A DNA stretch of 64,000 bases from Chryseobacterium sp. LJ668 (GTDB lineage: Bacteria; Bacteroidota; Bacteroidia; Flavobacteriales; Weeksellaceae): NCBI RefSeq assembly GCF_019613955.1, contig NZ_CP080443.1, positions 2,279,001 through 2,343,000 of the forward strand, read 5' to 3'. A program made the translations under genes and the position numbers. The stretch's first letter is position 1, and the number at the start of each line of letters is the position of its first letter. The notes beneath the pieces are model-generated. The model did not search any database, was not told the origin of the DNA, and saw nothing but the letters and a program-made list of their open reading frames with translations. Positions 4,579 to 64,000 of the stretch are shown here, in pieces.

Positions 4579-4586
4579 TATCTTTG
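4579..4586 (+). promoter_or_regulatory. -7 box TATCTTTG of the NA37 gene
   Basis: Perfect match to the Bacteroidota -7 consensus TAnnTTTG, 19 bases before the ATG at 4606. This rules out the upstream in-frame ATG at 4555, which would lie ahead of the transcript. The -33 element is not obvious. Confidence 0.75.
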
Positions 4587-4605
4587 CAGCCACAAAAAAT
4601 CAAAG

Positions 4606-5619
4606 ATGTTTTCAAAAATTGTAGTGCACAGAGTCGGAAATAAAATTAACGGAGAATCTCTTCTCCTTTCTCAGGAAGAGCTTGAACTGGATGAAGGAAC
4701 GGTAGAAATGTTGGAGAATTATTTTCTAGGCTCTTTTAAAACCGAAGAAACCTATCAGTTTTATAGTGATTCTTATTTGGTCAACAATCCCGTATTTAGT
4801 TCTGTTTCTGAAATTTTTGAAGACAAAGGCAAATTTTTGTGGGAATCTGAAAATTTGGCGAAACATCTTTTTGAAGCAGCAGAAAATCCTCGTGTTCAAG
4901 GCGGCGAATTGTTTATTGTTTACTTTGAAGACGATAGGGAAGGTGATGAAAAAGTAGATAAAATAGGAATTTTTAAAACCGAAAAAAGAGAATCTTTCCT
5001 GAAGATTTTTCCTAAAAATGAATCATTTGAAATCGATAAGGATCAGGGGATCAGTCTTTCAAAAATAGACAAAGCTGCGCTGATCTACAATAGCAGCAAA
5101 GAAAGCGGATACGTACTTTCAGTCGTTGACAACAACAAAAATGGCGACATGTATTATTGGTTCGAAGATTTCCTAAAAGTAAAACAGCGCGATGACGAGT
5201 ATTTTCATACGCAAGAAGCTTTGATGGTCTACAAAGACTATATTACAAAGCAGCTGCCTCAGGAATTTGAAGTTTCAAAGGCAGATCAGGCAGACTTTTT
5301 AAATCAGTCAATCAATTTTTTTAAAGAAAAAGAAGAATTTAAGCTGGATGAGTTTGCTGCCGAAGTTTTGAAAGACGAGCATGTTATCGAAAGTTTTAAT
5401 AATTTTAAAACTGATTATGAGCAGGAAATGCAGATCAATATATCAGAAGAATTTCCTATTAGTGAAGCAGCGGTAAAGAAAACTCAGAGACATTTTAAGA
5501 GTATCATTAAGCTTGATAAGAATTTCCACATTTATATCCATGGAGATCGAAAAATGCTGGAACAGGGCCAGGATGAGAAAGGTAAATATTATATGCTGTA
5601 TTTTGATAAAGAGGTTTAA
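4606..5619 (+). CDS. nucleoid-associated protein, NA37/YejK family
   Basis: A 337-residue protein of the 37-kDa nucleoid-associated family (NdpA/YejK), proteins found bound to the nucleoid whose exact job is not settled. The N-terminus (FSKIVVHRVGNKINGESLLLS) and the central KIDKAALIYNSSKESGYVLSVVD region are typical of the flavobacterial branch. The length fits the family. I chose the ATG at 4606 because a perfect promoter box ends 19 bases upstream; the longer frame from 4555 would overlap that promoter. It stands alone, with no operon partner. Confidence 0.85.
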   Translation: MFSKIVVHRVGNKINGESLLLSQEELELDEGTVEMLENYFLGSFKTEETYQFYSDSYLVNNPVFSSVSEIFEDKGKFLWESENLAKHLFEAAENPRVQGGELFIVYFEDDREGDEKVDKIGIFKTEKRESFLKIFPKNESFEIDKDQGISLSKIDKAALIYNSSKESGYVLSVVDNNKNGDMYYWFEDFLKVKQRDDEYFHTQEALMVYKDYITKQLPQEFEVSKADQADFLNQSINFFKEKEEFKLDEFAAEVLKDEHVIESFNNFKTDYEQEMQINISEEFPISEAAVKKTQRHFKSIIKLDKNFHIYIHGDRKMLEQGQDEKGKYYMLYFDKEV

Positions 5620-5825
5620 AATTATATCTTTAATAATATATGATAATCTGAGAGATCATATCTAAATTATATTAATGTTTATTTTTTTATGAAACATTAA
5701 TGATTATTATGACAGTTTCCGCATTACCTTGTTAAAATATTATTAACAAAATGTAATTTTTATTAATTATCATTACAAATAACTTATCAGATACCACAAA
5801 GTTACTTTTCGATACCAAAAATAGC

Positions 5826-5833
5826 TAACTTTG
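5826..5833 (+). promoter_or_regulatory. -7 box TAACTTTG of the phytochrome-heme oxygenase operon
   Basis: TAnnTTTG match 19 bases before the ATG at 5853. Transcription would start near 5840, which favours ATG 5853 over the GTG at 5844. Confidence 0.7.
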
Positions 5834-5852
5834 ATTTCTTTAAGTGTTATTT

Positions 5853-49608: not shown

Positions 49609-50463
49609 TTACTCTTTAACTTTATTCAAATGCTTTTTCTTAAAAGCTGTGGGTGTTTCACCAATGTAATTTTTAAATAATTTATTGAAGTAAGAGAGAC
49701 TTTCAAAACCGACCAGAAAAGAAACTTCAGTGATACACAAATTCTGTAGAAGCAACATTTTTGCCTGATTGAGCCTGTAATTGTTTACAAAATCGGTAAA
49801 TGTCATGTTCGTCTGCTTTTTAAAATATCTGCAAAAAGCAGGTGTACTAAGGCTCACCATCTCTGCAATGGTATTAACATTTGGGTTTTTATCGTAATTT
49901 TCGTTAATATAATCATATATGGTTCCCATTCTGATTTTATCATTTAAAAACCATTTTACCCGCGTATCTTCTTTGTTTAATTCTATGACTTCGGTTGATT
50001 GGGAAAGGATTTGCAGAACTTCCATTAAGGCCATAAGCGACTCAAAAGAATTCATTTCTTTGATTAAATGCAGCTTTTCGGCAACGATTTTTTTTGTCTC
50101 TCCATAAAATGATAAACCAAGGTAAGAGCGCTCTAATAGTTTTTTAATATCATCAAACTCTGGAACAGGCAGAATAATTTGCTCCGGAAAATTTTCTTTA
50201 AATTGTAGAACCAGCTGTTTATACTCAGTTTTAATTCCGTAATCAAAATTAAGATGCGGAACATTGGAGCCTACTAAAAGAAGATCACTTTCCATAAAAC
50301 CGGAAATATTTTTACCAACATGACGGATTCCGTTTAATGCTTCTACGTAAACCAATTCGATCTCGGGATGATAATGCCAGAAAAAGCGGTGCTTCATTGA
50401 GGGTTCAAATATTTTAAAAGATTTGCCTTTTTCGAAGTTAATAATCTCTTTCTGGATTTTCAT
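49609..50463 (-). CDS. AraC family transcriptional regulator (cupin type)
   Basis: A 284-residue regulator with an N-terminal cupin (FFWHYHPEIELVYVE, metal-like His near 29-31) and a C-terminal AraC DNA-binding domain (NTIAEMVSLSTPAFCRYFKK; SFLVGFESLSYFNKLFKN). This type often senses sugars or aromatic ligands. It is divergent from an MFS exporter, its likely target; the shared 128-base region carries a minus-strand TAAATTTG (50492-50499) but no clear repeats. Confidence 0.92.
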   Translation of the reverse strand: MKIQKEIINFEKGKSFKIFEPSMKHRFFWHYHPEIELVYVEALNGIRHVGKNISGFMESDLLLVGSNVPHLNFDYGIKTEYKQLVLQFKENFPEQIILPVPEFDDIKKLLERSYLGLSFYGETKKIVAEKLHLIKEMNSFESLMALMEVLQILSQSTEVIELNKEDTRVKWFLNDKIRMGTIYDYINENYDKNPNVNTIAEMVSLSTPAFCRYFKKQTNMTFTDFVNNYRLNQAKMLLLQNLCITEVSFLVGFESLSYFNKLFKNYIGETPTAFKKKHLNKVKE

Positions 50464-50591
50464 TAGGTTCTGTTTTGATTAATTATTAATACAAATTTAT
50501 TTAAAATAGTCAATATAGAGCAATAATCAATCATCTCAGAACAAATAAAAACAATAATTTCTCTCCAATTTTGCACTGAAATAGAGAAAAA

Positions 50592-51788
50592 ATGTTTGAT
50601 AAACGAATTTTGCCTTTGGCAATAGGTGGTTTGGCTATCGGAACTACAGAATTTACGATTATGGGATTACTTCCCGACATGGCAAAAACTTTACAGATTA
50701 CCATTCCACAAGCTGGTCATCTGATTGCGGCTTATGCTTTGGGAGTTGTCATCGGAGCACCGATTTTAATTGGATATTCTGTAAAGTTTCCGCCTAAAAA
50801 AGTATTGACGGTGCTCATGATAATTTTTACAGTTTTTAATGCACTTTCTGCGATTGCACCAGATTATAATTCAATGCTGATCATTAGATTCATGTCGGGT
50901 TTACCACATGGAGCATTTTTCGGGGTTGGAACTGTAGTCGCATCAAGAATAGCAGGAAAAGGGAAGGAGGCGTTATATATTTCTTTGATGTTTACCGGAT
51001 TGACGGTCGCAAATCTTGCAATGGTTCCTCTAGTTACCTATATCGGGCATGCATTTCATTGGCGTTGGTATTTTGCCATTGTCGGTGTGATAGGAATTGC
51101 AACTTTATTGGCTTTAAAGCTATGGCTTCCTGCAATGGAAAAAAAGGAAGACACCCATTTTTTGGAAGAACTAAAATTTCTGAAAGGCAGACAGGCCTGG
51201 CTTGTTTTAATGATTACGGCGATAGGATTTGGGGGATTGTTTACATGGTTTAGTTATATTACACCACTGATGACTATTGTTTCAGGGATTGAAAGCAGCT
51301 TTATGGCATACGTTATGATTCTTGCGGGTGGCGGAATGGTTTTAGGAAACTTAGCCGGAGGTTTTTTGTCGGATAAATTGGGTCCGGAAAAAACGTGCAG
51401 TGTATTACTGTTCTTAATGATGTTATCTTTGACGGGAGTGTTTTTTCTTTCAGAATATCAGAGTATCTCTTTGGTTCTGACATTTATATGTGGAGCATTA
51501 TCAATGTCGGTAGCCTCGCCGATCAATATTATGATGATGAAAGCTGCCCCAAAAAGTGAGATGATGGCTGCAGCTTTTATGCAGGCTGCGTTTAACATTG
51601 CCAATGCAATGGGAGCTTTCCTGGGAGGAATTCCTTTAGAACGTGGCTTGCCCTTTAATTATCCTTCGCTCGTAGGTGTCGGAATGACCATTATAGGATT
51701 GTCTATCAGCATTGTTTATTTTTATATGTACCGGTCACCACGTGTAGAAAAAGAAAAAATTGCGGGAGAATGCATTACCTGTGACTAA
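50592..51788 (+). CDS. MFS transporter (AraJ/sugar-efflux type)
   Basis: A 398-residue major facilitator with about 12 transmembrane segments and no long soluble domain. It opens with LAIGGLAIGTTEFTIMGLLP, as in AraJ-like sugar-efflux and drug-efflux carriers, and keeps motif-A-like GFLSDKLGPEK. The substrate cannot be told. It is divergent from an AraC regulator. A CAATTTTG (50566-50573), one base off the consensus, is the best -7 candidate. The symmetric hairpin at 51791 ends it. Confidence 0.9.
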   Translation: MFDKRILPLAIGGLAIGTTEFTIMGLLPDMAKTLQITIPQAGHLIAAYALGVVIGAPILIGYSVKFPPKKVLTVLMIIFTVFNALSAIAPDYNSMLIIRFMSGLPHGAFFGVGTVVASRIAGKGKEALYISLMFTGLTVANLAMVPLVTYIGHAFHWRWYFAIVGVIGIATLLALKLWLPAMEKKEDTHFLEELKFLKGRQAWLVLMITAIGFGGLFTWFSYITPLMTIVSGIESSFMAYVMILAGGGMVLGNLAGGFLSDKLGPEKTCSVLLFLMMLSLTGVFFLSEYQSISLVLTFICGALSMSVASPINIMMMKAAPKSEMMAAAFMQAAFNIANAMGAFLGGIPLERGLPFNYPSLVGVGMTIIGLSISIVYFYMYRSPRVEKEKIAGECITCD

Positions 51789-51790
51789 TA

Positions 51791-51819
51791 AAAAAGAGAA
51801 GCAATTGCTTCTCTTTTTT
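51791..51819. terminator. bidirectional terminator (perfect palindrome)
   Basis: AAAAAGAGAAGCAATTGCTTCTCTTTTT: fully symmetric stem, with a T run on both strands, between two convergent genes. Confidence 0.92.
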
Positions 51820-52200
51820 CTAATCTTCGACTTCGTTACCGTTTTGACACCAATATAAAGCGTTGTAAAGATTTTCTTTCGGAAAAGATTTAAATTCTCC
51901 CGGCATTACCACACTGAAAATATCTGTGAACTTCTGCACACCTTCTTTATCAGTTACGATGGCTGCGCGGTTCCATTTTGTAATATTCTTTATTCCTAAA
52001 AATGCATCCTGAAGCCAAGCGCCCATGCTGAAGTTACTAAGATCTGTATCCAGATAAAGCAAATAATTTAATTCATTATACTGCTCTACTTTCTTTTTTA
52101 CATGTGGAATCACAAGATTTTCAAAATCTTCTTGGGTAACATCGCCTGTAGCATTAAAAGCTGCTACGTTTTCCGGAGCATCATTGATAATTGATATCAT
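51820..52200 (-). CDS. STAS/SEC14-like (SpoIIAA-fold) protein
   Basis: A 126-residue cytoplasmic protein of the SpoIIAA-like/STAS-SEC14 group: MISIINDAPENVAAFNATGDVTQEDFE, LLYLDTDLSNFSMGAW, WNRAAIVTDKEGVQKF. These folds may bind small ligands or lipids, but their role is unknown. The length is typical. It is convergent with the MFS gene and divergent from the flavoprotein. Confidence 0.82.
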   Translation of the reverse strand: MISIINDAPENVAAFNATGDVTQEDFENLVIPHVKKKVEQYNELNYLLYLDTDLSNFSMGAWLQDAFLGIKNITKWNRAAIVTDKEGVQKFTDIFSVVMPGEFKSFPKENLYNALYWCQNGNEVED

Positions 52201-52311
52201 AATTTATATATTAATGGTTTGGTGGTTTTACTTTATCAATAATTAAACCATAAATGTAGAAATAGAGGGTGCAAAGGCGCAATTCTTGATTATGTTTTTG
52301 AAAAATAATCT

Positions 52312-53517
52312 ATGGACCTGAAATCTAACGAACCTTTCTGGCTTTTGAAAAATGGTCTTATTTATTCCTATCCTTCCCTGAAATCTGATAAAGAATGTGA
52401 CGTTCTTATTATCGGAGGCGGAATTACAGGAAGTCTCATAGCCCATCAAATGATAAAAGACGGATACCAAACAATTTTGGTTGATAAACGCGAAATCTGC
52501 AACGGAAGCACATCTGCAACAACTTCAATGCTGCAATATGAAATTGATACACCGCTTTACAAATTGAAAGAAATGATTGGTGAAGAAGGCGCATTAGAAA
52601 GTTATAAAGCATGTTCAAAAGCAATTGACGATATTGAAAAATTAGTAAAAGAAATAAAATCCAGATCAGGTTTCAAAAGAAAACAATCTTTGTATTTTGC
52701 TACGAAAAAGAAAGATTCACTTTGGCTGGAGAAAGAATATGAAGCAAGGAAAAAAGCAGGGTTCGAAGTGTCATGGCTAGGTACGGAAGATATTGAAGAA
52801 AGATTCGGGTTTCAAAACACATATGGAGCGATCTTATCCAAACAGGGCGCAAGTATTGATGCCTTCAAATTTGCACACGAAATATTAAAATTTAACGAAA
52901 AAAAAGGATTGCTGATTTATGATAAAACAGAAGTGAAATCTGTAAAATATCTGAGAGATCATAATCTTGCATTAACTACCGACGGCTTCAGTATCAAAGC
53001 AAAAAAAATTATATACTGCATCGGTTACGAAAGCAAAAATATGATTAAAGATGATTTTGTACATCTTAAATGCACTTTTGCTATAATTTCTGAGGTGGAT
53101 AGAAGTAGATTTAAAAACCTGGAGCATACTTTATTCTGGAATACCGATCAGCCATACACCTATATGCGTTCCACCGATGACGAGAGACTTTTAATTGGAG
53201 GTGGTGACGAAGATTTTTCTAATGCTCAAAAACGTGACCTGCTTTTGGATAAAAAAGAAAAAAGCATTCTCAAATTCATGAAAAGAATAAACCCGGATTA
53301 TCAATTTTATCCTGATTTTGTCTGGGCGGGAACATTTGGCGAAACAAAAGACGGGCTCCCGTATATCGGTACGCACGATCATTTTAAAAACTCCTATTTC
53401 GTTTTAGGTTTTGGAGGAAACGGAATCACCTTTTCTGTGACCGGAATGGAAATGGCTTCCGCTTTTATGAAAAATATAAAACATCCACTTGCTGAATATT
53501 TTAAATTTGGCAGATAA
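52312..53517 (+). CDS. FAD-dependent oxidoreductase (DAO family)
   Basis: A 401-residue flavoprotein of the D-amino-acid oxidase-like group. The FAD motif is DVLIIGGGITGSLIAHQM (near 28-45), followed by the substrate-facing GSTSATTSMLQYE. The C-terminal region has TKDGLPYIGTHDHF and LGFGGNGITFSVTGM. The substrate is unknown; relatives oxidise amines or amino acids. It is a lone gene with a strong hairpin after it. Confidence 0.88.
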   Translation: MDLKSNEPFWLLKNGLIYSYPSLKSDKECDVLIIGGGITGSLIAHQMIKDGYQTILVDKREICNGSTSATTSMLQYEIDTPLYKLKEMIGEEGALESYKACSKAIDDIEKLVKEIKSRSGFKRKQSLYFATKKKDSLWLEKEYEARKKAGFEVSWLGTEDIEERFGFQNTYGAILSKQGASIDAFKFAHEILKFNEKKGLLIYDKTEVKSVKYLRDHNLALTTDGFSIKAKKIIYCIGYESKNMIKDDFVHLKCTFAIISEVDRSRFKNLEHTLFWNTDQPYTYMRSTDDERLLIGGGDEDFSNAQKRDLLLDKKEKSILKFMKRINPDYQFYPDFVWAGTFGETKDGLPYIGTHDHFKNSYFVLGFGGNGITFSVTGMEMASAFMKNIKHPLAEYFKFGR

Positions 53518-53556
53518 TTACTTTTACATTCATGAAATTTTAAGTGTTCTGGAAAA

Positions 53557-53591
53557 AGTTTCGGGGTTCGGCGAAGCCGAACCCCGAAACT
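53557..53591. terminator. 16-bp perfect hairpin between convergent genes
   Basis: AGTTTCGGGGTTCGGC / GCCGAACCCCGAAACT with a 3-base loop. A T5 tract follows on the minus strand, so it ends the VWA operon; it should also affect the plus-strand flavoprotein gene. Confidence 0.85.
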
Positions 53592-53658
53592 GGAAACAAC
53601 ACTAATACTAATTTTTCTAAGCTAAAAATATCATTTTCAAATTTTGTCAATTCCGGCT

Positions 53659-54852
53659 TTAAAAACTATATCCATTTTTTTTCGCCAGTTCAATAATAGA
53701 TTTCTCAATTGCCTTTCCTAAATCATCACTATCAGAACTTCCTCGTTTTTTCATTTCAGAATCAATAAAAGTCTGTCTCTGCTTTGCAAGAATTTCAATT
53801 TCTCTCTGAATTTTATCCCGGTCTGCAGACTTTTGGGCAACAATTTTATTGATTTCATCTTTGCTTTTTCCTTTTAGTTCAGAAGGCAATTCCTCTTCTT
53901 TTATGGTAGAAATATAGGCCTTGTCTTTTTCTACTTTATCTACCAGATCCCAATGGTCGTTCTTGTAGGCATTTTTCTTAGATTTGCTTACTGCACGCTC
54001 TACAGCGTTTGATGCGGACTGCATTTCGGCATTAGAATCTTGGGTGATTTGCTTGCTTTTGTATTCTGCACCCTTATATCCGAAAGTGATGTACGTGTCA
54101 TTGAGTTTAGAATTGTATTGCGAAATTTTTATATCATAAGGCGTTTCAATATAAATCACTTTCTGATCACTATCGATATTGAAAAATTTTCCGTCTCCAA
54201 GACTGGCTCCATTTTGCCAAAAGGTTTGAATTCCTTCATTACGGTTTCCACAGAAAATGGTATTGGTATAAATGTTTTTACTCTTCGCTTTAGCAATTGC
54301 CTCTTTATAATTGATCTTTCCTTGGTCAAAAGGTTCGTTTCCTGCAATATAAATCAGCTTCATGCTTTTTTCATTTCCGTCCCAGTTCAGATTCATAGAA
54401 GCATCACGAATTACGGCGCCGCAGTATTCACTTCCACCATTTGTTCTGAGAGCAAATAGCTTTTCTGAAACCATATCCAAATCTTGGGTAAGAGGAGTCA
54501 CTTGCCGGATATAGTTTTCATCTTTCAGACCGTCATTTCCGTATTCATATAAAGCAATTTCAACTTGCGGAGCTTGTCCGTTATATTTCAATGTGGTCAA
54601 TGTATTGACGATATTCCATAATCTTGATTTTGCCTGATCAATAAGGCCATCCATACTGTTTGACGTATCCAAAAGCAATGCAACCTGAATTTTATTTTCT
54701 TTGGAAACGATCATGGGTGATTGCGGAGAAATATGACTTTCAACACTTTTTCTATCAGCAGCTTTAGTGCTGCAACGGATGTCGGAAATTTTTCCTGCGC
54801 TTAAAAAAGCAGTTACGCTTGTTGCTAAAGCTAAAATTTTTAATGTGTTCAT
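53659..54852 (-). CDS. VWA domain-containing exported protein
   Basis: A 397-residue protein with a signal peptide (TAFLSAGK, to about 20). The von Willebrand A domain carries the metal-binding site LLLDTSNSMDGL (Asp62, Ser64, Ser66), and the C-terminal third is a coiled-coil-like region rich in Lys and Glu. Such exported VWA proteins are usually adhesion or complex-assembly factors. It is the second gene of an operon with the MuiA-like gene and would be controlled by the same upstream repeats. The biological role is not established. Confidence 0.9.
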   Translation of the reverse strand: MNTLKILALATSVTAFLSAGKISDIRCSTKAADRKSVESHISPQSPMIVSKENKIQVALLLDTSNSMDGLIDQAKSRLWNIVNTLTTLKYNGQAPQVEIALYEYGNDGLKDENYIRQVTPLTQDLDMVSEKLFALRTNGGSEYCGAVIRDASMNLNWDGNEKSMKLIYIAGNEPFDQGKINYKEAIAKAKSKNIYTNTIFCGNRNEGIQTFWQNGASLGDGKFFNIDSDQKVIYIETPYDIKISQYNSKLNDTYITFGYKGAEYKSKQITQDSNAEMQSASNAVERAVSKSKKNAYKNDHWDLVDKVEKDKAYISTIKEEELPSELKGKSKDEINKIVAQKSADRDKIQREIEILAKQRQTFIDSEMKKRGSSDSDDLGKAIEKSIIELAKKNGYSF

Positions 54853-54890
54853 AGCGTATGTTTTTAATTAATTTAAATTATATTTAATTT

Positions 54891-54915
54891 CTCTAAAACT
54901 CTAAAACTCTAAAAC
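54891..54915. repeat. tandem 8-mer (CTCTAAAA x3)
   Basis: Three perfect copies of CTCTAAAA in the 63-base gap between the MuiA-like and VWA genes. Confidence 0.6.
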
Positions 54916-56514
54916 CTATCTGCTGTAATACTGAATCTGCATTTCCTTAGGATATTTCACTTCATAAGAGAAATTGATTTTATCTGAAGCTCCGCTGTTG
55001 ATTTTTCTGTTCCAAAGAATGCTTCCGGTTTTTTCGTCATAGATTCCATTTCCGATTTCTAAAGATTTCACCGTAATCTTTGAATTTTCACTTAAAGGAA
55101 GCTGATCAAGAATTTCCAGTTCGATGTTTTCCTTCGTATTGTTTCTCACCGTAATTTCATAAGACTCTGTTTCCCATTTATTAGAGTTGAGTGTTTTATG
55201 TGAAGTTTTGTCTTCAATCTTGATTCTTTTCACCACAATTCTTTCATCAACACCAAGAGAAATTGGGAATTCATCTTTTACATAAGTGCTTTTTATATTT
55301 GTTTTTCCGATGTAGTTATCTTCAAAATAAATATTGGCTTCTCCTGAAATGAGGTTTAGGTTTTGCCAGTTTTTCACAAAAGCCATCAGGAAAACCTGAT
55401 TATTCAGCTTAGGCACGGTGTGATATTTATACGTTGCATCCACTTCTTTTTTATCCAAAATCACATATTGCTCTTTTTCCTGACTGACGATGGTTTGATT
55501 AAATTTCAGCTCATACAAAACATTCATCTGATTATCCGAAACCGTCGCTACAGGAATTTGGCTTGTAGCTGCAACTTCTTCAGCGCGCATTTGGTAAGAG
55601 TTTGTCAAATCAGCTTTTGCTTTTTTTTCATATCCAATTTTCACATCATCGTAATTGTGAGCCGTGTATTCTGCAACGTAGAGTGGTAACAAAATAGGTC
55701 TGTCCTGATTGTAAGATGGGCGGTAAGTAGAAACGAAAAGCTTAACATTGTTCCAGTCCTGTCCGGTTTTCTGATAAATTTTTCCTTTGTAGACAATCTC
55801 AAGAGGTCTTTTGGTTGATAAAGCACGCAAATCGTAAGATGGAATCCAACCCGCATTGGAAACAATGTAACTTACTCCAAGATTCAAATTCATTTCGTTT
55901 TCGGCGAGAATTTCCAAAATAAGCTCTTTTTTATTTTGATTTTTATGGGTCTGCTCTTCCGCAAACTGCTTGTCGATTTTAGCAATGCTTTCATCCAATA
56001 CAGTTTTTTGTTCGCTGAGTAAAAACACCTGGTTATCAATTTCAAGCATTCTTTTTCTGTAAAATTCTGTCAGTTTTATCAGCTGTTCCTGCGGGGTTGA
56101 TTTGTCGTTGGTAGAAACTTTGAGATTATCGTTGATGATATTTTGTTCGCCAGTAAGATTTTTAATCTGAATATTCAACAAATTAACCTGTCTTAGAAAT
56201 TTCTTCTTTTCATCATTCAGTTTTTTTTCTCCGTCAGAAAGCTCATCATCTTTAAGATAATTGCTTTGTGGGGTAATTGAGAGAAGTGTTGTGTTCTTTT
56301 CAAGATTGATTTTGTAGGTGTTTTCATCAAGATCATTAGGCAGATTGATTATTTTCACTGTATTTTTTCCTTTTTGCAGAGTCACATTTGTACTTCCAAA
56401 AACTTTAGCGCCCTGTAGAAAAACGGTTGCCTGTTTTATATCTATTTCCTTTTTTATTTCCTGAGATTTTAGAAATGAAACTGAAAGAATTAATATTAAA
56501 AAATAGTGTCGCAT
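54916..56514 (-). CDS. mucoidy inhibitor MuiA family protein (DUF4139)
   Basis: A 532-residue exported protein. A signal peptide is followed by a DUF4140-like N-terminal part (KQATVFLQGAKVFGS), a long helical/coiled-coil region (about 75-190), then the DUF4139 domain (LGVSYIVSNAGWIPSYDLRA onwards) and the C-terminal WNRKINSGASDKINFSYEVK. Members are known as mucoidy inhibitors, but their mechanism is unknown. It heads an operon with the VWA gene. The direct repeats at 56577-56607 lie 62 bases upstream. Confidence 0.9.
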   Translation of the reverse strand: MRHYFLILILSVSFLKSQEIKKEIDIKQATVFLQGAKVFGSTNVTLQKGKNTVKIINLPNDLDENTYKINLEKNTTLLSITPQSNYLKDDELSDGEKKLNDEKKKFLRQVNLLNIQIKNLTGEQNIINDNLKVSTNDKSTPQEQLIKLTEFYRKRMLEIDNQVFLLSEQKTVLDESIAKIDKQFAEEQTHKNQNKKELILEILAENEMNLNLGVSYIVSNAGWIPSYDLRALSTKRPLEIVYKGKIYQKTGQDWNNVKLFVSTYRPSYNQDRPILLPLYVAEYTAHNYDDVKIGYEKKAKADLTNSYQMRAEEVAATSQIPVATVSDNQMNVLYELKFNQTIVSQEKEQYVILDKKEVDATYKYHTVPKLNNQVFLMAFVKNWQNLNLISGEANIYFEDNYIGKTNIKSTYVKDEFPISLGVDERIVVKRIKIEDKTSHKTLNSNKWETESYEITVRNNTKENIELEILDQLPLSENSKITVKSLEIGNGIYDEKTGSILWNRKINSGASDKINFSYEVKYPKEMQIQYYSR

Positions 56515-56576
56515 TGTTTATTATTTTTTTGATTTCTACAGTAAAATTACTTTGTATCTCAAACGTAATTTTGCAG

Positions 56577-56607
56577 ACTTGGTAAATAGTAGACTTGACT
56601 TGGTGAA
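56577..56607. promoter_or_regulatory. LytTR-type direct repeats ahead of the MuiA operon
   Basis: ACTTGGTAAA (56577-56586) and ACTTGGTGAA (56598-56607), 21 bases from start to start, 62 bases before the MuiA start. A matching pair lies at 58420-58450. A minus-strand TACGTTTG (56560-56567) is a candidate -7 box. Confidence 0.6.
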
Positions 56608-56628
56608 TGAAATATGTATTAAGATTAA

Positions 56629-57771
56629 CTAGTAATCTGTCAAAATATGGAATCTGTCTTGTGACACATTCATTTTTTTGAAATCGACCGCTTTAGCGTT
56701 GATTTTCTGGTTTTTAAAATAAAATGTAATCGTGCTGTCTTTCTGATTTTTCAATAGTTTATGTTTGGACATATTGTGGTTATCATCTTTGAGAATTATT
56801 TGATTATCAACAGAAATATCATAATGAAATGCACTCATTTTCTCAGAAGATTTATCCATAAAAATCAGGTATTGGTCTTTATGAAAAAATAAATATTGAT
56901 ATGGACTTTCGGGAGAAGATACATGATAAGCTCCGACTAAATTCAATGGATTTTTTTCATCTTCTTTATTGAAATAGGATATTCCTAATTTGATAAATAA
57001 AATTCCTACAATTAAGATTTTTAAAAATGCTTTATAAGGAAGAAATGTAGCTTGGTCAAAATAAGTTTTTCCAGGAACACGGATAATTATCAAAATAAGC
57101 TTCCATCCAGTTTCTCTCACCAAAAAAATGCTCATCAAAAGTAAGATCAAAGAGAAAAATTTCACAGAAATATCAAACCCGATATTGATAATGAAAATTT
57201 GACTAAAACTGATGATTGATAATAACAATACTAGGAATAGAGAACGTTTGAATAGCAATAGAATGCCCGTAAAAAATTCGATAGATCCGATAATCAAATT
57301 ATATATTTTTGAAGTTCCAATGATACTCCAGAATAAGATATCTTGATCTAAATTTCCGAATCGGGTAAATAAAATATTTGATTCAGGCGTCGGAAACTGA
57401 GTTTGAAAAATTTTGTCGACTCCATATTTTATTAAAATAACTGAGATATAATTTATACATACATATTCTATCATTAATAAAAACTTCTCTGCTCGTTTTT
57501 TCTTTATAATGAAACTCAAAACTGCAGAATTGAACAGCAGAATAATTATCAAAATCAACATTGAAATACTATCGGAACTATAATCTATTCTGATATTTTT
57601 CTTATTGAAAAAATTTTCTGAAAGAAGTTGAGTGAAATCTCCAAAAATGAAATGAGTAATTTTCAATTGATAATCATTCAAAAAAGTCAATGGAAAAAAA
57701 ACTATAAATTGTAGAAAAAACACACCAAAAAATAGGCTGGATTTTTCTAAAAGAATTGATGTGTTACACAC
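56629..57771 (-). CDS. DoxX-like polytopic membrane protein
   Basis: A 380-residue protein with about eight transmembrane segments in the first 270 residues and a soluble C-terminal domain of about 100 residues (YQYLFFHKDQYLIFMDKSS). The SIEFFTGILLLFKRS stretch is DoxX-like. Similar proteins sit beside respiratory or envelope genes in Bacteroidota, but a function is not known. It is 11 bases downstream of the small exported protein, so the pair is an operon. The LytTR-type repeats lie ahead of that operon. Confidence 0.75.
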   Translation of the reverse strand: MCNTSILLEKSSLFFGVFFLQFIVFFPLTFLNDYQLKITHFIFGDFTQLLSENFFNKKNIRIDYSSDSISMLILIIILLFNSAVLSFIIKKKRAEKFLLMIEYVCINYISVILIKYGVDKIFQTQFPTPESNILFTRFGNLDQDILFWSIIGTSKIYNLIIGSIEFFTGILLLFKRSLFLVLLLSIISFSQIFIINIGFDISVKFFSLILLLMSIFLVRETGWKLILIIIRVPGKTYFDQATFLPYKAFLKILIVGILFIKLGISYFNKEDEKNPLNLVGAYHVSSPESPYQYLFFHKDQYLIFMDKSSEKMSAFHYDISVDNQIILKDDNHNMSKHKLLKNQKDSTITFYFKNQKINAKAVDFKKMNVSQDRFHILTDY

Positions 57772-57782
57772 TCTTTTAAGTT

Positions 57783-58358
57783 TTAGGGGTGTTTCTTATA
57801 GATAAAGAGAAAAGCAAAAACAGCAATACTTAAAACCAATAAAGACATCATTTCCTCAGTAGGCCTGCCGTTTTTTATTTCTGCATTTTTTATCGCTTTT
57901 TTAATCGGTAATGGTTTGTATTTTTTAGTTTTAGCATCATATTTTAGAAATACGGTACTGTCGATATCATTTTGAAAATTATAATCTTTCTTAAGTATAT
58001 CTTTTACACTATCTATATTCCTGCTCGAAAAAATAGCATGATTATACACGGTATCTCTTCCGGCTTTCCATTTTTCTGTATTTCCGTTTCTTCTGTTTTT
58101 GCAGAATAATGAAGTGATCATTACGCTTTTTTTGTTATCGATGATAATGACGCTGTCTAATCTCGAATTGGTTACAAATCGTTCCGGTGCAACTCCAAGA
58201 TTAGAATAATTGGTGTTGTAGTGATCTTCTAAAATACTTTTTTCAAAATATTTCATATCACCGCTGTGACTTTTGTAGGAGATTAATTTGGTTTGGGAGA
58301 AAGCATTGCAACTCCATAGTAATAATACAGATTGAATTAAAAAGGATAGATTTTTCAT
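57783..58358 (-). CDS. hypothetical exported, C-terminally anchored protein
   Basis: A 191-residue protein with a signal peptide (LWSCNAFSQ, to about 22) and a C-terminal membrane helix (MMSLLVLSIAVFAFLFIY). The middle is a small soluble domain with VMITSLFCKNRRNG. No family recognised. It is in an operon with the DoxX-like gene, behind the direct repeats (start 61 bases from the nearest repeat) and a TAAGTTTG -7 box (58384-58391, minus). Confidence 0.75.
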   Translation of the reverse strand: MKNLSFLIQSVLLLWSCNAFSQTKLISYKSHSGDMKYFEKSILEDHYNTNYSNLGVAPERFVTNSRLDSVIIIDNKKSVMITSLFCKNRRNGNTEKWKAGRDTVYNHAIFSSRNIDSVKDILKKDYNFQNDIDSTVFLKYDAKTKKYKPLPIKKAIKNAEIKNGRPTEEMMSLLVLSIAVFAFLFIYKKHP

Positions 58359-58383
58359 GATAAATAAGTTTAAAATTAGGATA

Positions 58384-58391
58384 CAAACTTA
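58384..58391 (-). promoter_or_regulatory. -7 box TAAGTTTG of the DoxX-like operon
   Basis: Minus-strand TAnnTTTG match 25 bases before the start at 58358. Confidence 0.6.
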
Positions 58392-58419
58392 GCTTCATAA
58401 CCAAAGGCTGAAAGGGTAA

Positions 58420-58450
58420 ACTTGGTGAAATCCATTTTCCACTTGGTGAA
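58420..58450. promoter_or_regulatory. LytTR-type direct repeats between the DoxX-like operon and the kinase
   Basis: Two identical copies of ACTTGGTGAA (58420-58429 and 58441-58450), 21 bases apart. The site lies 61 bases from the minus-strand start and 39 bases from the kinase ATG on the plus side, so it could serve both directions. Confidence 0.65.
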
Positions 58451-58456
58451 AAGTTG

Positions 58457-58485
58457 TTGGCGAATTATATATATGTATATCTTTG
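58457..58485 (+). promoter_or_regulatory. promoter of the kinase (TTG-N18-TATCTTTG)
   Basis: -33 TTG 58457-58459 and -7 TATCTTTG 58478-58485. The ATG follows the -7 box by only 4 bases, so the message should be leaderless or nearly so. Confidence 0.7.
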
Positions 58486-58489
58486 TTTT

Positions 58490-60262
58490 ATGAAAACACT
58501 CCGGGTTTTTACGCTTCTTTTTATTCTGGTTTTTGGGAATATTCTCTATTCTCAGACTACGAATGTTGTAAAAGAAGTTCAGGCAGAGACTAAAAAACTG
58601 AGTAAAGCAGTTGACAGCAAAAACGAATCTGCAGAAGCCGACTCTTATTACAATATCGGTGAAACTTTTTACAACAACGGCAACTTTCCGAAAAGTGAAG
58701 AATATTTTATAAAATCAAAAAATATTTACGAAAAGCTCAATGATAAACAGAATCTCGAAAAGGTAACGAGAAAACTGGCACAATCTCAGGAAAACCAAAA
58801 TAAACTGAGATCTGCACTCAATAATTACGAAGTGGCATCGAATATTGGATATTCAAAATCAAAAAAAGTTTTAAACGCCAATGATGTATCTAGGCTTTCA
58901 TCGCCGTCAGTTGCTCAAAAAGCAGAAGCCATTCAGAATAATATCAACATCAGCGAAAAAGAAAATAACAAAGAAGATCTCGCAGCAAGCTATAGCCAAA
59001 TGGCGGATGTAAATATGGAGCAGAAAAATATTCCGAAAGCCGAGGAAAACCTGAACAGTGCATATCAAATTTCTAAAAAAGATGCTCCTCAGCAGGCATT
59101 GGAAATCAATCAGAAACTGACTGATTTTTATGTCGGAAACAAAAATTTCGACAAAGCCATTGAGGCTAAAAAAGAAGTTCTAAAGGAAGATTTTGTAAAA
59201 GACAATTCTCAGAAAAAAGTAGAGCAGATCCAGGAGCTTGCAGAGATTTACATCAAAAAAAATGATCCTGAAGAAGCCATAGTTTTATTAAAAAACGCCT
59301 ACGATATTGCTTTAAATAAAGGTCATACATTAGAAGCCCAGAAAAGTGTAAAAAAACTCGACAGTTTATATGCAATTTCTGAAAATACAACAGCTTCGGT
59401 GAATCTTTACCGTGATTTTTTAAAAAGACTGCCCGATTTGGTTTCTAAAGACCGGAGTTTGGTAGACAATAAGATCCTTGAAGATACCGAACAGCGGATT
59501 TCACAGCTAGAACAGGAAAAAAAGCTGAAAGATGAGCTGATTCGGAAGAAAAATATTTTCAATTACAGCCTGATCGCAGTTTTAGTATTATTGTCTTGTT
59601 TGGTTTTTTTTATTTTCAGAATGCTAAAAAAAGTTCAGATCAAAAATAAAAAAATAGCCTTACAATCGCTGCGTCGTGAGATGAATCCGCATTTTATTTT
59701 TAATAGCTTAAATTCTGTCAATCAGTTTATCGCAACTAATAATGAGCTGGAAGCGAATCAATATTTAACCAAATTCTCAAAATTGATGCGTGGTGTTATG
59801 GAAAATTCTGCCGAAGATTTTATTCCGTTTCATCAGGAATTAGATTTGCTTCAGAATTATCTGGCTTTAGAAAAAACACGTTTTGCTGAAAAATTTGATT
59901 ATGAAATTATCGTTGATGAAAATTTAAACCGGCAAAATCTCCAGATTCCGGGAATGATGGTTCAGCCGTTCTTAGAAAACGCAATTTGGCACGGACTGCG
60001 TTACAGAACTGAAAAAGGATTTTTGAAGCTTAGTTTTAAAAAAGAAAATCAACATTTGAAAATCTGCATCGAAGACAACGGAATCGGAATTGAAGAAAGC
60101 AAAAAGCAGAAAACCATCCACCAAAAAAACCGGGAGGGGCGCGGAATGAAAAATACTTTAGAACGAATCAGGCTCCTCAATGACTTGTATCAGAAAGGTA
60201 TTACCTGCTCAGTTAAAGATTCTGAAAAAGGAGTGATGGTCGAGATTTTGATGATGATTTAA
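58490..60262 (+). CDS. TPR-containing LytS-type sensor histidine kinase
   Basis: A 590-residue sensor. A signal peptide is followed by a periplasmic region of TPR-like repeats (about 30-330), one transmembrane helix (about 355-378), and a His_kinase/HATPase module. The phospho-His lies in RREMNPHFIFNSLNSV (near 402). The N-type box MMVQPFLENAIWHGLRY and G boxes DNGIGI and GRGMKN follow. LytS-type kinases signal to LytTR regulators, and one lies 75 bases downstream. The ATG at 58490 fits the promoter; the longer frame from 58454 does not. Confidence 0.93.
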   Translation: MKTLRVFTLLFILVFGNILYSQTTNVVKEVQAETKKLSKAVDSKNESAEADSYYNIGETFYNNGNFPKSEEYFIKSKNIYEKLNDKQNLEKVTRKLAQSQENQNKLRSALNNYEVASNIGYSKSKKVLNANDVSRLSSPSVAQKAEAIQNNINISEKENNKEDLAASYSQMADVNMEQKNIPKAEENLNSAYQISKKDAPQQALEINQKLTDFYVGNKNFDKAIEAKKEVLKEDFVKDNSQKKVEQIQELAEIYIKKNDPEEAIVLLKNAYDIALNKGHTLEAQKSVKKLDSLYAISENTTASVNLYRDFLKRLPDLVSKDRSLVDNKILEDTEQRISQLEQEKKLKDELIRKKNIFNYSLIAVLVLLSCLVFFIFRMLKKVQIKNKKIALQSLRREMNPHFIFNSLNSVNQFIATNNELEANQYLTKFSKLMRGVMENSAEDFIPFHQELDLLQNYLALEKTRFAEKFDYEIIVDENLNRQNLQIPGMMVQPFLENAIWHGLRYRTEKGFLKLSFKKENQHLKICIEDNGIGIEESKKQKTIHQKNREGRGMKNTLERIRLLNDLYQKGITCSVKDSEKGVMVEILMMI

Positions 60263-60337
60263 GAAAGATACTGATGAAATTATTTAGAAATATAACGACT
60301 TATTTAATGTCTTCAATAGTAATCTCAAACTAAAAAG

Positions 60338-61072
60338 ATGAAAATAAAATCCATCATCGTAGACGATGAAAAAATTGCAAGAGATGTTCTCAGAAATTAT
60401 CTTTCAAAATACTGTCCGCAAATCGAGATTTTGGGTGAGGCTGAGAATATAAAAGAAGCTGTTCCTTTGATTGCTGAAATGCAGCCACAATTGGTTTTTC
60501 TCGATGTCGAAATGCCTTTCGGAAATGCTTTTGATGTGTTGGAAGCTACCAGTGAATATACCTATGAAACAATTTTTATTACCGCATTTTCTCAATATTC
60601 TCTTCAGGCTTTGAATAAATCTGCAAGTTATTATATTTTAAAACCTATTGATATTCAGGAGCTTATTTTATCAGTAAATAAGGTGGCAGAAAGCATTGAG
60701 AAGAATGAAGAACTCAACCGGAATAAAATTCTTCTTGAAAATTTAAAATTAAAACCCGAAAAACAACAGCTGATTCTCCCGACTTTGCAGGGTTTTGATG
60801 TAGTGAAAACAGAAGATATCATGAGACTTCAGGCGGATGGAAATTTTACACAGGTTTATCTCACAGACCATTCAAAAAAGATGGTTTGTCGGTTTTTAAA
60901 GCATTTTGATGACCTGCTTGAAAATCCTTTTGTAAGAGTCCACCGTTCACATATCATCAACACAAATTTTGTAAAATCTTACCATAAAAGCGGTACTGCA
61001 ACGCTGTCTGATGACACCGAAATTGAAGTTTCTTCAAGCTTTAAAGATCAGTTTTTGAAAGTTTTTTCTTAA
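60338..61072 (+). CDS. LytTR-family response regulator
   Basis: A 244-residue regulator. The receiver domain has the phospho-acceptor Asp56 (VFLDVEMP) and Lys102 (ILKPID). The LytTR DNA-binding domain occupies about 140-244 (VRVHRSHIINTNFVKS). LytTR proteins bind direct repeats about 21 bp apart. Such repeats (ACTTGGTRAA) lie upstream of the MuiA-VWA operon and between the DoxX-like operon and the kinase, so these are its likely targets. It is the cognate partner of the preceding kinase. Confidence 0.93.
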   Translation: MKIKSIIVDDEKIARDVLRNYLSKYCPQIEILGEAENIKEAVPLIAEMQPQLVFLDVEMPFGNAFDVLEATSEYTYETIFITAFSQYSLQALNKSASYYILKPIDIQELILSVNKVAESIEKNEELNRNKILLENLKLKPEKQQLILPTLQGFDVVKTEDIMRLQADGNFTQVYLTDHSKKMVCRFLKHFDDLLENPFVRVHRSHIINTNFVKSYHKSGTATLSDDTEIEVSSSFKDQFLKVFS

Positions 61073-61140
61073 TCTGAAGATAGAAAATTGCCAAGCAGGG
61101 CATCATTTTTGAATCTAATTTTCACACAAAACCTTATTCT

Positions 61141-61680
61141 ATGAAAACTTTTCAGAAAATAGCTATTCCGGTTTCTTTGGGCATTATCGGATTGTTGTTA
61201 TTCAGTTCCTGTTCGGTGGGAATTACAGAAGGTGCAACGGCCGTCAAAAATTTTAATTCGGAAAAATATCTTGGTAAATGGTACGAAATTGCTCGTTTCG
61301 ACTATAAATTTGAGAAGAATCTGGATAATGTTACCGCCGATTATTCTCTCAATCCTGATGGTACAATCAAAGTTCAGAACAGAGGCTACAATTACATTAA
61401 AAAAGAATGGAAAGAGTCAGTAGGAGAGGCAAGATTCGTCAATGATAAATCTGAAGCAAGATTGAAAGTTTCATTTTTTAAACCTATTTGGGCTGGTTAC
61501 AATGTAATCGATATTGATGACGACTATCAGCACGCTTTGATTGTCGGCCATAGCACAAAATATATTTGGATTTTATCAAGAAATAAAGAAATTCCAAACA
61601 GCATCAGAGAAAGATTTTTAGCAAAAGCTAAGAAATTGGGTTTTAATACGGATGATTTAATTTGGGTAAAACATAATTAA
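61141..61680 (+). CDS. blc: lipocalin (Blc-type lipoprotein)
   Basis: A 179-residue lipoprotein (LLLFSSCSVG, lipid Cys at 24). The lipocalin GxW motif is LGKWYEIARFD (near 44-54). The barrel continues with DYSLNPDGTIKVQNRGY and ends with LSRNKEIPN. Blc-type lipocalins bind lipids in the envelope, often under membrane stress. It follows the two-component genes by 68 bases but no shared operator is seen. The following inverted repeat may act as terminator. Confidence 0.92.
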   Translation: MKTFQKIAIPVSLGIIGLLLFSSCSVGITEGATAVKNFNSEKYLGKWYEIARFDYKFEKNLDNVTADYSLNPDGTIKVQNRGYNYIKKEWKESVGEARFVNDKSEARLKVSFFKPIWAGYNVIDIDDDYQHALIVGHSTKYIWILSRNKEIPNSIRERFLAKAKKLGFNTDDLIWVKHN

Positions 61681-61681
61681 T

Positions 61682-61712
61682 CATTGCGAGGAGCGAAGCA
61701 ATGAAGCAATCT
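61682..61712. repeat. REP-like intergenic element
   Basis: 31 bases differing at three positions from the element at 49465-49495, in the gap after the lipocalin gene. Confidence 0.7.
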
Positions 61713-61730
61713 CAAATAATTTAATATTAA

Positions 61731-61812
61731 GTTTGTCATTCTGACGAAGGAAGAATCTCTACAATTAAAAATAGATTCTTCACTCCATTTCTTTTCGTTC
61801 AGAATGACAAAC
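61731..61812. repeat. long inverted repeat after the lipocalin gene
   Basis: Left arm GTTTGTCATTCTGA-CGAAGGAAGAATCT (61731-61758) pairs imperfectly with AGATTCTTC ... TCAGAATGACAAAC (61773-61812). It is a second repeat family beside the REP-like one and may terminate both convergent genes. Confidence 0.65.
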
Positions 61813-61813
61813 T

Positions 61814-62302
61814 TTATGTTTTATTTAAATTCCTATACTTTTTCCACTCCAAAAAACGGAGATCAATAATCTGTTTCATCACATCATAATTTTCATAAGT
61901 GTCTTCAATATGATAAAAGGTCTCATATTCAAAATCACTTTCTTCAGCCATAGAATCAAAAATATTGATATAATCCGTAGCAAATGAACTGAATTGATCT
62001 GCAAAATCTGTTTCATCAACATAATAATCCTTCGCAAAAGCATTTCCCATATCATTCAGATTATATTCGGAAAACTTTCCTTCTAAGGCCTCGATGACAA
62101 AATCTGCACCGGTTATTTCGCGTTTTTTTAGACTTTTAATTTTATTTTCGTGGGCTTCATTAAGCTCATTGGAATATAAACTATTGTTGATACACCAATT
62201 CAGGAACATTCCGGTATGTGTTGCGCTGTTCTTTTCGGGGAGCCCTTCGGGAAAATCTTCGCTATGGTGCCATGAAGCATCATCATAAGTAGTCATAATC
62301 AT
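61814..62302 (-). CDS. hypothetical protein (DUF7832-like)
   Basis: A 162-residue cytoplasmic protein, acidic and mostly helical. TYDDASWHHSEDFPEGLP and ATHTGMFLNWCINN resemble a family I recall as DUF7832, in which the DDASWH and ATHxGMFL motifs are conserved; its function is unknown. Related proteins sometimes occur in immunity-protein clusters, but no toxin is nearby. A minus-strand TATCTTTG (62328-62335) lies 25 bases upstream. Either Met1 or Met3 could be the start. Confidence 0.72.
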   Translation of the reverse strand: MIMTTYDDASWHHSEDFPEGLPEKNSATHTGMFLNWCINNSLYSNELNEAHENKIKSLKKREITGADFVIEALEGKFSEYNLNDMGNAFAKDYYVDETDFADQFSSFATDYINIFDSMAEESDFEYETFYHIEDTYENYDVMKQIIDLRFLEWKKYRNLNKT

Positions 62303-62327
62303 TATTATAGTTGCAGACAGTTCAAAT

Positions 62328-62335
62328 CAAAGATA
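62328..62335 (-). promoter_or_regulatory. -7 box TATCTTTG of the DUF7832-like gene
   Basis: Minus-strand TAnnTTTG match 25 bases before the start at 62302. No clear -33. Confidence 0.6.
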
Positions 62336-62414
62336 TAAAAAATCATTTTCTTTTGCTTACCACAAAGATTTTAGCGTCATTTGTAATGAATTTTTTCTCT
62401 CAAAAATCAAAAGT

Positions 62415-63665
62415 ATGCAAAACGCAGTTCTTATCACCATTGGTGACGAAATTCTTTCTGGAAATACCGTTGATACCAATTCAAATTTCATTGCTACGGA
62501 GCTCAAAAATATAGGAATAAAAGTTGTACAGATTTTCACCATTTCAGACGAGATTGAAATTATCAAAAATACATTGAAATCTGCCTTTGAATTGGGCAAT
62601 TTGGTTATTACTACAGGCGGTTTAGGACCAACAAGAGATGATAAAACCAAGAAAGCTTTAGCCGAGTTTTTTGATGACGAAATTGCTTTGGATGATGTCA
62701 CTTTTAAACATCTTAGATCATACATGGAAAAACGAGGCCGCATCGAAATCTTAGAAAGAAACCGCGAGCAGGCTTTCGTGCCTACAAAATCCAAAGTTTT
62801 TCAAAATCATTACGGCACTGCACCTTGTATGATGATGGAACAGGACGGGAAATTATCTTTTAGTTTACCCGGTGTGCCTTATGAAGTAAAGCCTTTGATT
62901 AAAGATCAGATTGTTCCTTTTTTAAAAGATAAATTTAACCTGAATTTTATTACAACGAGAATTGTTTCTGTAGTGGGTATTCCAGAGAGCATTTTAGCAG
63001 ACCAAATTGAAAACTGGGAGTTGTCTTTGCCTGAAAACCTTGCCCTTTCATATCTTCCAGTCGGAACAAGAGTGAAATTGAGGTTGACTGCAACGGGAAC
63101 AGATGATAATGTATTGCAAAGCCAGTTAGAAGAAGAAATTCAAAAATTGATTCCGATCATCGGAGATAATATCATAGCTACCTCAGAAGATAAAATTGAA
63201 AAGATTTTAGGCGAAATTCTAAGCCGAAAAAAGCTTACGATTTCAATGGCAGAAAGCTGTACCGGCGGACAGTTATCGCTTCTGTTAACTGCAATTCCCG
63301 GGAGTTCAAAATATTTTTTCGGAGGCGTCGTTGCGTACGAAACTCAGAAAAAAATCGACCTTTTGAACGTTTCCGAAAGTTCAGTAGAACGCTTTACAGT
63401 TGTGAGCGAAGAGGTCTCAAGTGAAATGGCTAAAGGCTGTCAGAATTTATTTAAAACGGATATTGCACTTTCCACTACAGGAGTTGCCGGCCCCGGAAAA
63501 GGAGAAGATGGTAAAGAAGTTGGTCTGGTTTATTATACGATCAGAGTCAAAAATGAATCTGAAACTTTCAAACTATTTCTCCCGCATCTGGAAAGACAGG
63601 ATTTTATTTATTTTGTCTCTCAGAAAATCATTCAGGATTTGGTAGGAATTTTAATTCGAAAATAA
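62415..63665 (+). CDS. cinA: CinA family protein (competence/damage-inducible)
   Basis: A 416-residue two-domain protein. The N-terminal MoCF-like domain shows ITIGDEILSGNTVDTNS and TTGGLGPTRDD (ADP-ribose/FAD-pyrophosphatase type in studied members). The C-terminal domain (MAESCTGGQLSLLLTAIPGS near 279-298; TTGVAGPG) is the nicotinamide-nucleotide amidase, which recycles NMN for NAD. Both domains appear complete. It is followed by the M13 peptidase. Confidence 0.94.
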   Translation: MQNAVLITIGDEILSGNTVDTNSNFIATELKNIGIKVVQIFTISDEIEIIKNTLKSAFELGNLVITTGGLGPTRDDKTKKALAEFFDDEIALDDVTFKHLRSYMEKRGRIEILERNREQAFVPTKSKVFQNHYGTAPCMMMEQDGKLSFSLPGVPYEVKPLIKDQIVPFLKDKFNLNFITTRIVSVVGIPESILADQIENWELSLPENLALSYLPVGTRVKLRLTATGTDDNVLQSQLEEEIQKLIPIIGDNIIATSEDKIEKILGEILSRKKLTISMAESCTGGQLSLLLTAIPGSSKYFFGGVVAYETQKKIDLLNVSESSVERFTVVSEEVSSEMAKGCQNLFKTDIALSTTGVAGPGKGEDGKEVGLVYYTIRVKNESETFKLFLPHLERQDFIYFVSQKIIQDLVGILIRK

Positions 63666-63772
63666 AAAAAATAAATTATTATTTTTTTGAAAAATCCGAT
63701 TCATAAAATAAATTAACTTTCTCGTAACAAAATTTAAATTAAATATACATATTATATAAAATTATTATTAGA

Positions 63773-64000
63773 ATGAAAAAATTAACTCTTTCTTTGGCTT
63801 TATTAGCTGGGATAGGTTCACAAACAGTGAACGCACAAGCTACAGATAAAGGTCTGGATCTTAGCTTGATGGATAAATCAGTTCGTCCACAAGATGATTT
63901 TTACAATTATGTGAGCGGAACTTGGATGAAAACTGCTAAAATTCCTTCTGATAAACCAACTTGGGGAAGCTTCAACAAACTGGCTGATGATACAGACAAC
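63773..64000 (+). CDS. M13 family metallopeptidase (N-terminal part, cut by window edge)
   Basis: 76 codons from ATG 63773 to the window edge. A signal peptide (LLAGIGSQTVNAQ, to about 22) is followed by VRPQDDFYNYVSGTWMKTAKI, the N-terminal signature of M13 (neprilysin/PepO) peptidases. The zinc motif HExxH lies beyond the window. Exported oligopeptidase activity is likely if complete. Confidence 0.9.
   Translation, partial: MKKLTLSLALLAGIGSQTVNAQATDKGLDLSLMDKSVRPQDDFYNYVSGTWMKTAKIPSDKPTWGSFNKLADDTDN

Follow-up and report, generated by a model that had tools for sequence, protein, structure and literature searches.

The window examined here is a 64,000-nucleotide stretch of the Chryseobacterium sp. 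LJ668 genome, and the locus of interest within it (Table 1) carries genes for a MuiA-family protein, a VWA-type protein, a membrane protein and a small exported protein on one strand, and genes for a histidine kinase and a response regulator on the other. The initial annotation, made by reading the sequence alone, had recognised a TPR-LytS kinase and a LytTR regulator beside two pairs of direct repeats, and both proteins do score above the Pfam cut-offs (for the regulator, 59.6 against 30.2 bits for the receiver domain and 46.9 against 22.6 bits for the LytTR domain). Its other gene labels fared unevenly: MuiA stands, as the protein exceeds the NCBIfam subfamily cut-off of the MuiA family (TIGR02231), but Pfam gives the VWA and DoxX labels little backing. 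The homologue of the VWA-type protein in another genome of the family (G137), 58% identical, scores 22.8 bits against the Pfam VWA cut-off of 23.8. No Pfam DoxX match to the membrane protein was obtained with E up to 10 (the HMMER filters drop most matches above 0.1), and 'DoxX family protein' is the source name carried by several of its relatives. The regulator is neither a BtsR nor a LytR equivalog, as its best NCBIfam models, BtsR (YehT) with 104.2 bits against a cut-off of 246 and LytR with 89.2 against 375, remain far under their cut-offs.

Table 1. Genes, repeat pairs and predicted promoter elements of the locus (positions in the window)
Feature	Position	Strand	Evidence or remark
VWA-type protein, 397 aa, second gene of the presumed muiA operon	53659..54852	-	VWA_2 E 0.00047, 21.2 bits, under the curated cut-off of 27
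MuiA-family protein, 532 aa	54916..56514	-	TIGR02231 254.7 bits against a cut-off of 112.6; DUF4139 and DUF4140 above cut-off
Predicted -7 element TAATTTTA, muiA promoter	56542..56549	-	offset 58, counted from operator 1 (far edge)
Operator 1 (putative), ACTTGGTAAA-N11-ACTTGGTGAA direct repeat	56577..56607	+	exact match; upstream of muiA-VWA
Membrane protein, 'DoxX-like' in some databases	56629..57771	-	no Pfam family above cut-off
Exported protein, 191 aa, hydrophobic C-terminal segment (read from the sequence)	57783..58358	-	ORF; no Pfam family above cut-off
Predicted -7 element TAAGTTTG, exported-gene/DoxX-like promoter	58384..58391	-	offset 59 from operator 2
Operator 2 (putative), ACTTGGTGAA-N11-ACTTGGTGAA direct repeat	58420..58450	+	exact match; between the divergent exported gene and kinase gene
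Predicted -7 element TATCTTTG, kinase promoter	58478..58485	+	operator 2, offset 58; 4 nt separate it from the ATG
TPR-containing LytS-type histidine kinase, 590 aa	58490..60262	+	PF06580 77.7 bits against a cut-off of 25.2; TPR_12
LytTR response regulator, 244 aa, putatively binding operators 1 and 2	60338..61072	+	PF00072 59.6 bits, PF04397 46.9 bits

At the edges of the locus, two converging genes have between them a perfect inverted repeat (53557-53591; 16 bp, 3-base loop) that is probably a two-way terminator, and the regulator is followed by a lipocalin gene (61141-61680), for which the window scan found no exact site of its own and which is present in 78 of the 81 loci of the genus set described below.

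The two pairs of the 10-mer ACTTGGTRAA had been reported with starts 21 bp apart, at 62 bp from the start codon of muiA and 61 bp from that of the exported gene; coordinates, spacing and distances were all found to be exact. Operator 2 lies in addition 39 bp from the kinase ATG at 58490 and, being placed between two divergent genes, faces the exported gene and the kinase simultaneously. The initial reader had noticed no other pair, and an exhaustive scan of the window with spacers of 9-13 bp gave no third exact pair, the exact single 10-mers being four, all of them halves of both pairs; a repeat finder limited to lengths of 12 or more listed none of the direct-repeat type in the window. Such pairs could in principle be chance matches or members of a dispersed repeat family, and single copies with at most one mismatch are indeed common in the window (21 against 11.7 expected), but 100 dinucleotide shuffles of the window contained 0 exact pairs. 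Searching the whole genome (3,469,496 bases, 2 contigs) for ACTTGGTRAA-N11-ACTTGGTRAA, as had been proposed, returned two exact matches, both at the locus, rather than many unrelated copies. When up to 3 mismatches were tolerated, one match with 2 mismatches and three with 3 joined these two, 6 in all, and the reversed control pattern gave 4.

Within the genus, the pairs are conserved. All 36 of the 36 genus genomes of our 'relatives' sample (that of LJ668 included) match with at most 2 mismatches, which rules out a site private to one strain; outside the genus, 3 of the 23 genomes of this sample match at the same threshold. For a closer view we used a genus set of 81 loci, namely the best 80 of 565 confirmed regulator candidates, hence the closest relatives, plus the window (bases 50000-63900); 78 of the 80 are titled Chryseobacterium. 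This set contains 217 sites with at most 3 mismatches (81 exact and 116 with one mismatch; one site with 3 mismatches, L039 8134, overlaps a better site), and all 217 share the orientation of the kinase. Half-sites with at most one mismatch each are separated by an 11-bp gap in 200 pairs and by all other gaps from 0 to 40 bp together in 5. A single spacing and a single orientation over these 81 loci refute the chance reading, which we regard as practically negligible; shuffles, genome scan and gap counts together rule out chance matches and dispersed repeats.

The genes behind these sites are also recurrent in the genus set. The initial annotation proposed looking for the repeats next to orthologous loci, and a site is present at most 450 bp upstream of the kinase in 81/81 loci, 56-63 bp before muiA in 39 of the 40 loci in which the muiA N-terminus is present, and 30-130 bp before the SIMPL (DUF541) gene in 74 of the 75 loci that have one. 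SIMPL, not found in the window by tblastn, is the commonest site-preceded gene in the set apart from the kinase. The exported and DoxX-like genes are found in 11/81 loci and the VWA gene in 63/81; the 81 include loci cut off by a contig end or by the fetch limit. As a particular case, L043 encodes two SIMPL (DUF541) proteins of 224 and 321 aa (4476-5150 and 5256-6221), each preceded by its own site, the 224-aa protein being the type with relatives in 75 of the 81 loci.

The sites also keep a fixed distance to -7-like elements, which we express as offsets measured from the promoter-distal edge of the 31-bp site. On the kinase side, an exact TAnnTTTG at offset 58 or 59 is found for 55 of the 217 sites of the genus set; on the side away from the kinase, the exact element stands at 58 or 59 for 42/217 (37 of these at 59), and with at most one mismatch at 58 for 135/217 and at 59 for 42/217. 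SIMPL promoters read TAATTTTA, like muiA, and the exported-gene type reads TAAGTTTG; the predicted -7 elements match the promoters of the Bacteroidota primary sigma factor (TTTG / TAnnTTTG). In Flavobacterium johnsoniae, transcription starts 4-5 nt after the end of the -7 element (PMC6847099), and by this rule the sites would span about -70 to -40. At the kinase, the arrangement TAnnTTTG-N4-ATG occurs in 55 of the 81 loci of the genus set (it was not found in the other 26), so that in these 55 the kinase mRNA should begin at the ATG itself and is predicted to be leaderless; leaderless messages are a minority in F. psychrophilum, at 5.5% of the mRNAs with mapped leaders (PMC9723704). A transcribed RNA element was considered and rejected, since transcription is predicted to start downstream of the sites.

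This geometry bears on the sign of the regulation. Some 28 bp separate the sites from the -7 element downstream, so that they overlap neither this element nor the predicted start, a position usual for activators, and no clear -33 element was seen at muiA, as expected if that promoter depends on an activator. The opposite sign, in which the same regulator would use the repeats as operators to block RNA polymerase until released by a signal, has precedents, since AgrA represses bsaA and some LytTR proteins repress some of their targets (PMC4227749), and geometry does not measure the sign of an effect; given the position of the sites and the muiA promoter, we consider repression unlikely and favour activation.

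Using a motif threshold of at most one mismatch and a regulator orthologue threshold of E below 1e-100, we tallied the distribution of both across 296 genomes of the family. They agree in 293 (both in 144, neither in 149), the motif being alone in 2 and the regulator alone in 1. Within the genus, 140 genomes have both, 8 neither, 1 the motif only and 0 the regulator only; the corresponding numbers for family genomes outside the genus are 4, 141, 1 and 1. In the genus member with the motif only (G128), the kinase gene hits the contig end just before the expected regulator. G065, outside the genus, has a one-mismatch match, probably due to chance, with neither the regulator nor the other genes, in a genome that is 83% complete. 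G137, the genome with the regulator only, carries a variant, AATGGGTAAA-N11-AATGGGTAAA, midway between the VWA gene and the kinase, and TAGCTTTG stands at the usual offset towards VWA (by reading).

The initial annotation had also considered that the repeats might be absent where the genes are kept. None of the 81 genus-set loci showed this, but a genome outside the genus (G061) shows it in part: its site stands before muiA on one contig and its kinase-regulator pair, on another contig, has no site in front. SIMPL-VWA pairs placed far from the kinase, at 2.0 Mb in G252 and 209 kb in G314, keep a site of their own. The 8 genus genomes without the motif have also lost the close MuiA (in 3 of them there is a homologue, roughly 30% identical, that lacks a site), which indicates that the module was lost together, and co-occurrence therefore cannot separate the regulator from its targets. 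It follows that another DNA-binding protein, encoded elsewhere, could bind the repeats, the two-component system being simply one more target, as a distant regulator lost simultaneously would leave the same picture; among candidates, other LytTR regulators encoded in these genomes might bind them. Against this stand the agreement in 293 of 296 genomes and the architecture, which is that of LytTR sites (PMC4847170), as well as the comparison of regulator clades given below.

We then considered other genera of the order, in the family of G037, where a regulator homologue with E below 1e-60 is found in 89 of 199 genomes (one per genus). Fifty of these 89 loci were fetched, 48 of them 45-50% identical, and 47 were analysed, L189 being left out as its kinase ORF was not found. 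A VWA-type match lies upstream of the kinase on the opposite strand in 37 of the 47 and is the next gene in 28 (by reading). A motif-free scan upstream of the kinase (at least 8 of 10 bases repeated) detects a period of 21 in 39/47 loci; the other periods from 12 to 44 give 1-12 loci, except 42 with 21 loci because of a third repeat copy, and in dinucleotide-shuffled sequence period 21 turns up in 6.5 of the 47 loci on average and in 14 at most. This untrained scan is the independent test for the order-level repeats, as the half-site profile, by which 45 of 47 loci exceeded the null, had been trained on the very sequences it scored and is partly circular. The half-site in these genera is AATGAGTRAA; G037 and G415, whose loci are nearer the window's regulator, have mixed half-sites, for example AATGGGTCAA and ACTTGGTGAA.

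On the side away from the kinase, the order-level loci have a -7 element with at most one mismatch at offset 59 in 31/45 and an exact TAnnTTTG in 1/45 (L210 and L236, without a convincing repeat, were left out). On the kinase side, 28 loci have a -7 element of the same tolerance whose end is 17-19 bp from the ATG, and not at the 58-59 offset of the genus, which makes the VWA-type gene look like the older target. Whether it stands by itself or within an operon, this gene appears to be the oldest of the targets, and the predicted autoregulation of the kinase is not universal, as G061 and the other order genera deviate from it.

At the level of the class, 47 of 295 genomes have a match to the VWA protein. 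There were 30 loci among the matches listed, and 27 remained once our own, same-genus and G037 loci were left out (in one of them, L250, hardly any upstream DNA is available). Of these 27 loci among the matches listed, 14 show a distinct period of 21, where other periods from 15 to 29 give 1-5, and the other 13 have no period-21 repeat at the threshold used. Thirteen class-wide loci passed a GC filter, and 8 of them have a -7-like element 58-60 bp from an in-register repeat (by reading). The repeats of L265 and L271, two genomes from a different family within the class, read TTACCAAGT, the complement of the window's half-site.

Across these comparisons the half-site differs between two regulator clades and the layout is unchanged, which argues against a binder encoded elsewhere; taken with the co-occurrence and the architecture, it makes that alternative quite unlikely, and the adjoining LytTR regulator is the binder that we favour. 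In the regulator tree, neither of the two other clades stands out as the sister of the clade to which the window belongs, and the residues of the LytTR domain differ between clades at many positions, too many to tie single residues to half-site bases. A paralogous regulator of the genus, 43-45% identical, was looked at in five loci: its kinase was read as 959-960 aa in 4 of the 5, there was no VWA match, and the DNA upstream of the kinase held weak, imperfect repeat-like motifs only, a comparison that is not a specificity test.

As a kind, LytTR sites are already known. They generally consist of repeats of 9-11 nt with spacers of 11-13 nt and share no common sequence (PMC4847170), and the likeness to this architecture drawn in the initial annotation is confirmed by the 10-bp direct repeats with an 11-bp spacer before a predicted promoter; in the genus set, the 11-nt spacer is found in 200 of 205 pairs of 10-mers, at a fixed offset to the predicted promoters. 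Two known systems offer a comparison. The YpdB operator of Escherichia coli has an 11-bp spacer and belongs to a sigma-70 promoter, and the agr kinase of Staphylococcus aureus is a quorum-sensing kinase, of another type than the LytS-type kinase at our locus. Like the pairs described here, the operator of YpdA/YpdB, itself a LytS/LytTR system, is a 10-mer direct repeat (GGCATTTCAT) bound by the LytTR regulator, but its half-site sequence is different and the passages on this operator describe no shared divergent promoter pair (PMC4847170). The agr P2-P3 region likewise combines a LytTR regulator (AgrA), direct repeats and an intergenic region with two promoters; the promoter-proximal AgrA repeats centre near -60, and each promoter has binding sites (PMC4227749), whereas at our locus one pair is equidistant between two promoters. 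No LytTR operator in Bacteroidota and no paper on this regulon appeared among the top-ranked open-licence titles and abstracts, and the top matches to the literal half-site text look unrelated by title. A paper on a Riemerella two-component system lists a von Willebrand factor A gene among the down-regulated genes, in passages that do not mention LytTR (PMC5399024).

Taking these observations together, we consider it very probable that the LytTR regulator binds both repeat pairs and activates an envelope regulon along with its own kinase. In such a scheme, the membrane kinase, with a predicted periplasmic TPR part and a cytoplasmic LytS-type catalytic part, would sense an envelope signal and phosphorylate the regulator, which would then sit head-to-tail on both 10-bp half-sites, two helical turns apart and on the same face of the DNA. 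Bound just upstream of -33 (about -70 to -40), it would contact RNA polymerase and help the primary sigma factor to start from -7 promoters of the TAnnTTTG type, often with a poor -33. Operator 1 would serve muiA-VWA, and operator 2 the exported-gene/DoxX-like operon in one direction and, as a leaderless mRNA, the kinase-regulator operon in the other, which would create a positive feedback. As a direct repeat is asymmetric, two divergent polymerases would meet different faces of the dimer, mechanistically unusual if true. We infer that the genes of the locus form one regulon, and its composition is best read as the MuiA, VWA-like, SIMPL and DoxX-like envelope genes, joined in the genus by the system's own kinase.

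A broader proposition, for which we see the case as evenly balanced, is that of an envelope-sensing regulon spread over the class Bacteroidia, in which the distance from repeat to promoter would be kept to nearly the base pair as half-sites drift with the regulator (ACTTGGTRAA, AATGGGTAAA, AATGAGTRAA, TTAGGGAA) and in which, in the genus, one operator would switch on two equidistant divergent promoters, including that of the leaderless kinase mRNA. What is new here is a proposed regulon with unusually strong comparative support. MuiA, SIMPL and the VWA-type protein are widespread and poorly understood, and a common, tightly conserved operator would tie them into one response and offer a route to its signal and to their function. 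The fixed geometry with drifting half-sites makes a natural data set for DNA recognition by LytTR domains, and an operator common to two divergent promoters would allow a clean test of a head-to-tail dimer acting both ways.

Two minor observations concern the order-level loci. L188, L193 and L195 have three half-sites in a row, with a 21-bp period, before the kinase, and in these genera a third regulator subunit may sit on the operator. In at least 8 genomes of the G037 family, the distance between the regulator and the beginning of its contig is about 4.7-5.1 kb, a hint that a repeated element, for example an rRNA operon, may lie beside the module.
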